Made by a program: the position numbers and the translations under genes
Shown here: positions 30,054-32,697 of the stretch, piece by piece
Numbering within the stretch: the first letter of the stretch is position 1
Layout of the letters: every line of letters begins with the position of its first letter
Notes under the pieces: generated by a model
Database searches by the model: none
Told to the model about the DNA's origin: nothing
Seen by the model: only the letters and a program-made list of their open reading frames with translations
Source: Stratiformator vulcanicus
GTDB lineage: Bacteria; Planctomycetota; Planctomycetia; Planctomycetales; Planctomycetaceae
Direction: 5' to 3'
NCBI RefSeq assembly: GCF_007744515.1
Contig: NZ_CP036268.1
Span: 3,208,712-3,272,711 of the forward strand
Length of the DNA: 64,000 bases

Positions 30054-30956
30054 ATGGGAGTTCGAACGATTCTTAACGATTGGCTGAAAGCCCGGCTCGA
30101 CGAGCGGGCGTCCGATTGGCTCGAAGCTCAGACGATAAAGATCGCCGGCGGCAACGAACGCGCCCTGTACCTTGCCTTCGGCATGGCACCGCGGAAGGTG
30201 GGGAAGGCCGATCTGACTCCGTCCGACGAGGAAATCGCCGCAGCCGCGGAAGCATACCAGCCCGAGGCGCCAGCCGTCGGGGAATTACAGGGAAACGCAT
30301 CCCGACTGCTGGCGCCTCGGGCTTGTGTTGAGATGTCGACGCGTGACTGGAGTCTCGATCAGACCGCCCGCACGCTGCTGGTTCTGTCCTTTCCCGCGGA
30401 CGATGCCGATCGCTACGTAAGCGTGTTGGGCAAACTCTACGAGGCGGGCGAGGTCCGCGAACTGTGTGCGCTCTACCAGATGTTGCCGCTGCTGCCGCAT
30501 CCGGAGCGGCACGTCGACCGCTGCGTCGAGGGCATCCGCACAAACATGCTTCCGGTCTTCAAGTCGATCGCGCACCGCAATCCGTACCCCGCGGCCCATC
30601 TGCCCGAAGCCTCGTGGAACCAACTCGTCCTCAAATGCCTGTTCGTCGGCGAACCGCTCTACCCGATCATCGGGCTGGACGAACGAGCGAACCCCGATCT
30701 GGCGAAGATGCTCCACAAGTACGCGCTCGAACGCTGGGCGGCGAAGCGAGAGGTGAACCCGGAGCTGTGGCGGTGTGTGGGGCCGCATGCGGATGAGGCG
30801 GCGAGAGGCGATCTTGAACGGTTGGCAGATTCTGGTTCAGAACTAGAGCAAGCGTCAGCCGAGATGTGTCTCGGACCCGATGGGTCCGCGCGGTCGCATA
30901 GCTGGGATGAGCGCTGGAGCGAAGTTGGTCGTGAATTCGCAGCTGGCTCACAGTAG
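30054..30956 (+). CDS. eboA: EboA-family protein containing an inserted palindromic repeat
   Basis: The 300-aa protein resembles EboA of the bacterial ebo gene cluster, which in other bacteria is linked to trafficking or synthesis of secondary metabolites such as scytonemin. Family-like blocks are ALYQMLPLLPHPE, CVEGIRTNMLPVFKSIA, NPYPAAHLPE, SWNQLVLKCLFVGEPL and GLDERANPDLAKMLHKYA. Biochemical function is unknown. Residues of roughly 69-90 are encoded by a perfect-arm palindrome (30259-30323) that appears to be inserted in frame between the N-terminal part and TRDWSLDQTAR. GAGGA four bases before the ATG supports the start. eboB follows after one gene. Confidence 0.8.
   Translation: MGVRTILNDWLKARLDERASDWLEAQTIKIAGGNERALYLAFGMAPRKVGKADLTPSDEEIAAAAEAYQPEAPAVGELQGNASRLLAPRACVEMSTRDWSLDQTARTLLVLSFPADDADRYVSVLGKLYEAGEVRELCALYQMLPLLPHPERHVDRCVEGIRTNMLPVFKSIAHRNPYPAAHLPEASWNQLVLKCLFVGEPLYPIIGLDERANPDLAKMLHKYALERWAAKREVNPELWRCVGPHADEAARGDLERLADSGSELEQASAEMCLGPDGSARSHSWDERWSEVGREFAAGSQ
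30259..30323. repeat. Palindromic repeat element inside eboA
   Basis: AGCCCGAGGCGCCAGC (30259-30274) and its exact complement at 30308-30323 form 16-base arms; after one mismatch GTCGGG (30276-30281) pairs with CCCGAC (30301-30306), leaving a loop of 19 bases. It reads through in frame within eboA. The composition and layout resemble the short palindromic repeats normally found between planctomycete genes. Confidence 0.9.
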
Positions 30957-31004: not shown

Positions 31005-31730
31005 ATGCGCTCGATCACGATTGCGGCCTTTGGCATTCTTGGCTTGGTAAATAGTGTCGCCGTTGCGGGCGAGGATTTCTCCAACACCGATCTCGTGGAA
31101 CTTCAAGACAGACTCGACGACCTGAATCGTTTTAACGATAACGTTCTTCTAAAGGACAAGAAGGTCGACGAAATCGTTGAAAGGCTCAGCGAGCAGGCGG
31201 CGGGCAAGACGATTCACATCCGACTACGTGTCGAGCGCGTCGTCAAAGGCTACGTTTACGCGGAAGCACTGACTGAAGTGGCTTCGAAATGTCTTCCCGC
31301 AGTATTGATGTTGCCGACTGAAAGCTATGAGCGCCATAAAAGTAGCATTTGCCGTCAGCCGGGAAATCCTTTAATGGCGGCTTCAGCACAAGTCTCCGGA
31401 AACACGCGAGCGTACCTCCGTGAAATCCCGGAGCGTTGGAGCAGCACGAATTATTATCGGCTCGAGCCATCATTAAGAGCGGGGCGTCTATTCAACTTCC
31501 GAATTCGCTCAGCAGTCGGCCCAGAACTTGCCGAAACGCTGCGACGGGGCGACATCGTATTAGCTAAAGCAAAAATTCAATCCGTGTGCCGCGCACGTCT
31601 CGACCCACAAGTCAAACCCGGTGAGGTCGATCCCGACTTCGAAACCAAATTATGGGCAAGAGCCGACACAATCATGTTCATCTGCGTTGACCCTAAGGTC
31701 AGTCTCGCTGAGAGAACGGATACGAAATAA
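31005..31730 (+). CDS. Exported protein of unknown function between eboA and eboB
   Basis: The 241-aa protein starts with a signal peptide (ITIAAFGILGLVNSVAVA, likely cleaved before GED). The mature part has an N-terminal heptad-like helix (LVELQDRLDDLNRF), a likely beta-rich middle (IHIRLRVERVVKGYVYAEAL) and two regions with cysteines (SKCLPAV, SSICRQPG) that could form disulfides outside the cytoplasm. No family was recognised. It lies 48 bases after eboA and about 60 before eboB, so cotranscription is likely. Compared with its neighbours it is noticeably less GC-rich in places. Confidence 0.65.
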   Translation: MRSITIAAFGILGLVNSVAVAGEDFSNTDLVELQDRLDDLNRFNDNVLLKDKKVDEIVERLSEQAAGKTIHIRLRVERVVKGYVYAEALTEVASKCLPAVLMLPTESYERHKSSICRQPGNPLMAASAQVSGNTRAYLREIPERWSSTNYYRLEPSLRAGRLFNFRIRSAVGPELAETLRRGDIVLAKAKIQSVCRARLDPQVKPGEVDPDFETKLWARADTIMFICVDPKVSLAERTDTK

Positions 31731-31791
31731 GTCTGGAGTCCATGCTCTAGCGACTAAATTTATTCTATCAAATAGTACAGGAAGACTGAAG

Positions 31792-32697
31792 TTGATCATC
31801 GACCCACACATCCATGCCGTTTCCCGCACGACCGACGATTACGAGGCGATGTCCGCCGCCGGGGTCGTGGCGATTATTGAGCCCGCGTTTTGGCAGGGGC
31901 AGCCGCGGACGAAGATCGGGTCGTTCGAGGACTACTTCGCCACGCTCGTCGGCTTTGAGCGGTTTCGCGCGGCGCAGTTCGGGATTCGTCATTACTCGGC
32001 GATCGGCCTCAACAGCAAAGAGGCCAACAACGAGCCGCTCGCCGAGCAGGTGATGGAAATATTGCCGCTCTACCTCGCGAAGGAGGGCGTCGTCGCCGTC
32101 GGCGAGATTGGCTACGACGACATGACCGCCGCCGAGGACAGGTTCTTCCGGGCGCAGCTCGAACTGGCCAAGGAAGTCGAACTCCCCGTGATGGTCCATA
32201 CGCCGCACCGCAACAAGGAAGCGGGCACCAGTCGCAGCATGGACGTGATCGAAGAGCACGGCATCCCGCCGCACCTCGTCGTGATCGACCACAATAATGA
32301 GCGGACCTGCAAAGAGGTCCTCGACCGCGGCTACTGGGCGGGCTTCACAATCTACCCGAAGACCAAGATGGGCAACGAGCGGATGGTCGAAGTGGTCAAG
32401 CAGTTCGGCTCCGAGCGGATCATTGTCGATTCGAGCGCCGACTGGGGCGTCTCCGACCCGCTCGCGGTGCCAAAGACGGCCAATCTGATGAAAGAACGCG
32501 GCGTCGCCGAAGAGGATATCCGACTGACGACCTACCAGAACGCCCTCGACGCCTATGGCCAGAGCGGCCAGATCTCCGAAGACGACTGGCTCAACCCGCC
32601 CGCCATCGACCAACGGACCCTGTGGGAAGGCAACAGCGTCCTACGCGGTCAGGAGCCGAAGGTCGACGAACAAGCCGATTCGGGGCTGATCGAATAA
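31792..32697 (+). CDS. eboB: TatD-family metal-dependent hydrolase, EboB-like
   Basis: The 301-aa protein is a TIM-barrel amidohydrolase of the TatD-like group, matching EboB of ebo clusters. It opens with IIDPHIHAVSRTTDDYEAM, containing the first metal-binding HxH, then VVAVGEIGYDD, a middle histidine in MVHTPHRNK, VIDHNNE, and IIVDSSADWG with the terminal catalytic Asp. The substrate is unknown. I chose the TTG at 31792, with AGGA upstream, because a longer frame to 31621 overlaps the preceding gene by about 110 bases and is not conserved-looking. eboC to eboF are not in the window. Confidence 0.83.
   Translation: MIIDPHIHAVSRTTDDYEAMSAAGVVAIIEPAFWQGQPRTKIGSFEDYFATLVGFERFRAAQFGIRHYSAIGLNSKEANNEPLAEQVMEILPLYLAKEGVVAVGEIGYDDMTAAEDRFFRAQLELAKEVELPVMVHTPHRNKEAGTSRSMDVIEEHGIPPHLVVIDHNNERTCKEVLDRGYWAGFTIYPKTKMGNERMVEVVKQFGSERIIVDSSADWGVSDPLAVPKTANLMKERGVAEEDIRLTTYQNALDAYGQSGQISEDDWLNPPAIDQRTLWEGNSVLRGQEPKVDEQADSGLIE

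Follow-up and report, generated by a model that had tools for sequence, protein, structure and literature searches.

The eboA gene of the planctomycete Stratiformator vulcanicus carries a palindromic repeat in frame within its coding sequence. This repeat is very probably a REPIN, a lineage-specific, non-autonomous mobile element composed of two inverted REP units, which a RAYT transposase would have moved into what looks like a loop of the encoded protein and which appears to be tolerated there. The gene occupies positions 30054..30956 (+ strand) of a 64,000-nucleotide stretch of the genome, hereafter the window, and encodes 300 residues including the insert. On this reading, eboA offers a clear instance in which selfish DNA from between genes has turned into protein sequence in a planctomycete, replicated in a second gene of the same genome.

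The palindrome consists of two 26-nt arms (30256-30281 and 30301-30326) that are complementary at 24 of 26 positions (92%) and separated by a 19-nt spacer. The original prediction, made from the sequence of the window, described arms of 16 perfect bases extended by 6 more after a mismatch, and arm comparison confirmed this pattern, adding an outer mismatch and 2 further bases. The palindrome itself therefore stood, but its predicted length of 65 bases did not, because with the conserved outer ends the element spans about 75 bp (30254..30328, + strand), from ATACCAG to CTTGTGT, following the ATACAAG and CTTGTAT ends of other copies. Its left REP unit (30254..30281, + strand; G000:C1:3238970 in genome coordinates) has no mismatch to the unit pattern, and the right, inverted unit (30301..30328, − strand; G000:C1:3239013) has one; between them lies the inter-REP spacer (30282..30300, + strand). 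Five of the six reading frames across the 75 bp are free of stop codons. The element strand folded as RNA gave −55.1 kcal/mol, a value equalled by none of 200 shuffles (z −6.64), in line with the strong mRNA hairpin that had been proposed. An inverted-pair scan of the window with a distance limit of 80 listed 11 pairs, among which only one (1923-2001) had longer arms than the eboA element. This is a distinct inverted repeat of GCTATCAGC-type units, with 30-nt arms that are 90% complementary and 19 nt apart.

The element was then found to belong to a dispersed repeat family in the 5,228,745-base (5.23 Mb) genome. BLAST with the eboA element returned at least 78 matches (40 of 96 first-look candidates were scored), and because a palindrome matches on both strands, the number of places is smaller than the number of matches. 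The unit pattern AGCCNGAGGCGCNAGCCGNNGG matched the genome 119 times with up to three mismatches, against 33 times for the reversed control at the same limit; the 26 three-mismatch matches were left out of the family counts. The remaining 93 units (62 with no mismatch, 24 with one, and 7 with two) lie in 57 fetched stretches, comprising 38 asymmetric dimers (21 and 17 in the two orientations), three symmetric dimers (the eboA copy, L145, and L156), and 16 single places, including the doubtful L126 and L160. One stretch, L171, holds a dimer and an adjacent single unit, and another, L178, is a transposase locus. The asymmetric dimers (e.g., L123, L132, and L143) are MITE-like and built around two unequal REPs, and they form a longer palindrome, some 115 bp in length, whose ends resemble CTAGAAGCGATTTCAA. 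Each of the 41 dimers leaves two to six reading frames open.

Elements of this appearance were expected to lie between genes, and 43 of the 57 stretches indeed overlap no ORF of at least 60 codons with a codon score above 0.12, as estimated from ORFs and not from annotation. The family thus has many copies, mostly extragenic, with two clear copies and one probable copy inside genes; this, together with the pairing of two inverted REP units at a fixed short distance, is what characterizes REPINs and BIME-1 elements. The repeat family is nearly genome-specific, with hardly any matches in 169 other genomes from the same taxonomic family. The pattern AGCCCGAGGCGCNAGCCGTCGGG at up to two mismatches matched 54 times here, and four of the 169 genomes had one match each, all with two mismatches; the reversed pattern gave three matches in the same 170 genomes, 130 of which pass completeness and contamination limits.

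The many copies of the unit elsewhere in the genome rule out a chance palindrome. They also bear on the idea that the palindrome arose in place by a local inverted duplication and merely resembles the repeats. Such an origin would agree with the spacer of the eboA copy, which is not found elsewhere in the genome: a 24-nt pattern containing it matched only here at up to three mismatches. However, the arms match the unit at dozens of places, and the matched units of the eboA copy are 21 nt apart, compared with 20-21 nt in the three symmetric and 19-21 nt in the 38 asymmetric dimers. The copies elsewhere refute an origin in place for practical purposes, and we give it almost no credence.

The genome contains 11 Y1_Tnp matches. 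One of these, a RAYT-like gene with an ORF of 165 residues (G000:C1:5113305-5113802, equivalent to L178:1306-1803; Y1_Tnp 30.6 bits, cut-off 23), is flanked by inverted zero-mismatch REPs at 5113258 (+) and 5113825 (−). The genome thereby has a cognate RAYT gene bounded by the same REPs, a further mark of REPIN and BIME-1 systems; rayt genes are known to be bounded by two inverted REPs, as described in PMC3733652 and PMC2817692. Within about 1.5 kb of the Y1_Tnp genes, close REP matches were found beside this gene only, and the other ten had none below four mismatches. Weak four-mismatch matches lie near the Y1_Tnp genes of L084, where they form pairs flanking the gene, and L089; these loci perhaps represent related REP families, each with its own transposase.

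The host gene was identified as eboA by NCBIfam models: NF035938 matched at 173.5 bits (cut-off 50), and NF035937 matched in two stretches at 260.8 bits, below its cut-off of 320. A Pfam scan of the product gave no match. Downstream lies a TatD-like gene, probably eboB (31621..32697, + strand, start uncertain; PF01026, 66 bits), and the order of eboA, a gap, and a TatD-like gene recurs at L229 and L179, as judged there by translation resemblance. In Nostoc, scytonemin required all five ebo genes tested, according to PMC6282210. An EboC-like match far from eboA (L276, G000:C1:4659119-4660030; 177.4 bits, cut-off 250) suggests that the ebo genes here may be scattered, but EboC matches below the cut-off also occurred in 9 of 14 control genomes, so that L276 may instead encode another prenyltransferase.

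EboA was sought in 59 genomes including this one and was found in 16 of the 58 others. The segment is absent from all 16, with the same 23-residue gap in 15 of them and a still shorter sequence in L045. A GTDB scan yielded 61 EboA loci, 60 of which could be evaluated (L235 starts beyond the site), and the segment is missing from all 60. The two sets overlap, since L179 and L035 are the same protein. The closest titled relatives in the GTDB scan are Planctomycetaceae and Schlesneria MAGs. The gap expected near residues 69-92 is thus lineage-specific, and no conserved, non-palindromic segment of equal length occurs at this place in the relatives, which excludes a conserved EboA segment as the origin. 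From these alignments the net gain is 69 bp, one placement being 30258..30326 (+ strand; 23 codons, residues 69-91) with ends uncertain by a few bases. The in-frame gain that had been predicted was correct and its size of about 22 residues was slightly too small; both the 69-bp gain and the 75-bp element are divisible by three, as the original prediction supposed for a repeat that has become coding sequence, whereas 65 is not. The motif RPGWNP is common in planctomycete EboA relatives, although L045 and the Bacteroidota loci do not have it. In the present protein the residues bordering the insert are YVEMST instead, which means that the site itself also changed and did not simply take up the element. 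As the comparison was made without a genome of the same genus, no DNA-level empty site, target duplication, or exact boundary could be defined.

The rest of EboA is well conserved. The protein retains 48 of 51 columns that are conserved among the 16 relatives (0.94, compared with 0.72 to 1.0 for the relatives in leave-one-out comparisons), and of the three others two, G and W, lie where the element inserted and one, L, lies at residue 271. Loss of the G and W, together with the full-length NCBIfam score below its cut-off (260.8 vs. 320), would fit a recent pseudogene in which the insertion destroyed function too recently for the frame to close. Against this stand the extent of conservation, the frame from 30054 to 30956 with neither stop nor frameshift, and, weakly, the positive codon score after the insert. 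The codon score is 0.30 before the insert, −0.28 within it, and 0.20 after it, which is weak evidence given that open 67-codon stretches in any frame range from −0.29 to 0.33 between the 10th and 90th percentiles. The two positions at which the arms differ may predate the insertion and hence provide no date for it. We regard a pseudogene as unlikely, and the conservation outside the insert suggests that EboA with the insert still works.

The AlphaFold2 model of EboA, built with 38 sequences, is helical (mean pLDDT 89.2, pTM 0.87). The insert region falls between the helices at residues 58-67 and 101-111, with pLDDT values of 53 for residues 71-80 and 62 for residues 81-90, and two short low-confidence helices are drawn there (81-84 and 88-96). 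At this low confidence, the insert looks as if it sits in a loop between two helices; the low pLDDT may be a mere effect of the missing alignment at this place. Searching the PDB with the model for similar folds yielded nothing at E ≤ 0.001. These data are also relevant to the view that the element is kept for a function, either as a peptide contact or as an mRNA hairpin that slows or attenuates eboA expression. The predicted hairpin stability and the remaining 92% complementarity of the arms would be consistent with such a role. However, the hairpin was inherited from the repeat family, and how stable it is says nothing about selection in eboA; the codon score is lower in the insert than on either side of it, and the model assigns the insert low confidence. 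Retention for function consequently appears even less plausible than a pseudogene, and a tolerated REPIN is the reading that we prefer.

We sorted the 14 of 57 stretches that overlap an ORF of at least 60 codons with a codon score above 0.12, using ORFs, codon scores, and reading of the translations; homologues were sought for eboA, L156, and L129. In L125, L131, and L152, the element overlaps just one end of the scoring ORF. In L126, L145, L150, L162, L167, and L172, it falls early in the frame, and from the translations this position was taken as upstream of the true start. L160, a two-mismatch match in a primase-like frame with no REP ends, was set aside as chance, and the coding overlap of L123 was taken as spurious. 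The census left L156, L158 (the eboA copy), and L129. In a separate count, 24 frames extend at least 40 codons beyond the element on each side, and apart from the three survivors these look spurious.

As judged by sequence comparison, L156 is the second in-frame copy, a symmetric REP dimer within a beta-RFAP-synthase-like gene (G000:C1:3121944-3123047, equivalent to L156:1045-2148). The NCBIfam assignment is below cut-offs: the product matched beta-ribofuranosylaminobenzene 5'-phosphate synthase in two stretches at 71.9 bits (cut-off 328) and 63.6 bits (cut-off 113.5). GHMP_kinases_N scored 21.5 bits, just under its cut-off of 22.3. The loop between two conserved motifs is 62 residues long, compared with 24 to 33 residues in 47 of 49 relatives (27 residues in 31 of them), the 49 being drawn from 57 relatives that have a match. 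The gain is thus about 35 residues above the usual loop length; the REP dimer accounts for residues 131-157, and the remaining extra residues may derive from a right end of the longer asymmetric form that has since decayed. The other two of the 49 relatives also have a long loop, of unrelated sequence, 59 residues in G018 (L284, G018:C259:8200-9800) and 40 in G044 (L292, G044:C61:19600-20900), and a REP-type inverted repeat sought in these loops was found in neither. This loop has therefore grown independently in other lineages and accepts other insertions, and what speaks for an inserted copy in L156 is the presence of the repeat and not the added length.

L129, an ORF of 412 residues (L129:602-1837, − strand, G000:C1:1132501-1133736) with an asymmetric dimer in its N-terminal part, is probably a third in-frame copy. 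Its product had matches in 5 of 58 relatives (short in G017), all starting at residue 140 or later, past the insert. The codon score of the preceding part is 0.34, a coding value at about the 90th percentile of open stretches, although this part aligns unconvincingly to the relatives.

We propose that a RAYT, such as the product of G000:C1:5113305-5113802, probably moved a REPIN, and that one copy would have gone into the part of eboA that encodes the interhelix stretch; the role of the transposase is deduced from its REP-flanked gene. Against this reading count the presence of close REP matches beside only one of the 11 Y1_Tnp genes and a REP end, ATAC(A/C)AG, that differs from GTAG. With five of six element frames free of stops and a net change of 69 bp, the ribosome would read through, and EboA would be 23 residues longer. 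The gene may have survived because the interhelix stretch tolerates extra length. Long ORFs, of 250 codons or more, take up no less than 48 kb of the window (33 ORFs, 16,065 codons), so blind insertion would place most copies in genes, where two or three are seen; most intragenic insertions were presumably lost, and the surviving ones are presumably the harmless ones. With at least two and probably three unrelated genes affected, REPINs might be a recurrent source of protein segments in this lineage, with peptides perhaps tuned after insertion, a view that we hold tentatively and at somewhat under even odds. This raises a testable question, namely whether a peptide from a mobile repeat stays neutral filler or the host protein comes to use it.

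Among the literature listings searched and the passages of the papers cited here, we found neither this repeat nor in-frame REPs described for Planctomycetes; one of these papers, PMC3733652, treats Rhodopirellula baltica. REPs in frame within genes have been published before, as have Rickettsia palindromic elements, and the eboA case is a fresh example of a known phenomenon. Intragenic copies of the GTAG and CGTC REPs that lie wholly within ORFs encode 20 to 30 residues, and over half are dimers or groups (PMC3733652). The family described here resembles them in having short palindromes within ORFs, mostly intergenic copies, and a REP-flanked RAYT gene. Unlike the GTAG REPs, its unit has the conserved end ATAC(A/C)AG in place of a GTAG tag at the palindrome end. 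CGTC occurs within the inner arm of the unit, where it may or may not correspond to the tag that marks one palindrome end in the CGTC superfamily. The published account of intragenic REPs stresses replication and repair genes as hosts, whereas one host here is a metabolite-traffic gene and the other a cofactor gene. As in the REPINs of PMC3116915, an inverted REP doublet is the mobile unit and is associated with a RAYT, but copies are fewer here and two or three lie in coding sequence. The BIMEs and RAYTs of PMC2817692 share the two opposed, close REPs and the rayt gene between two inverted REPs; in contrast to those BIMEs, most copies here are asymmetric dimers enclosed in a longer palindrome whose ends resemble CTAGAAGCG. 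Rickettsia palindromic elements are in-frame inserts within genes likely encoding functional proteins (PMC3733652); compared by description, they behave like the eboA element, a palindromic repeat in frame in a gene, in a different host group.
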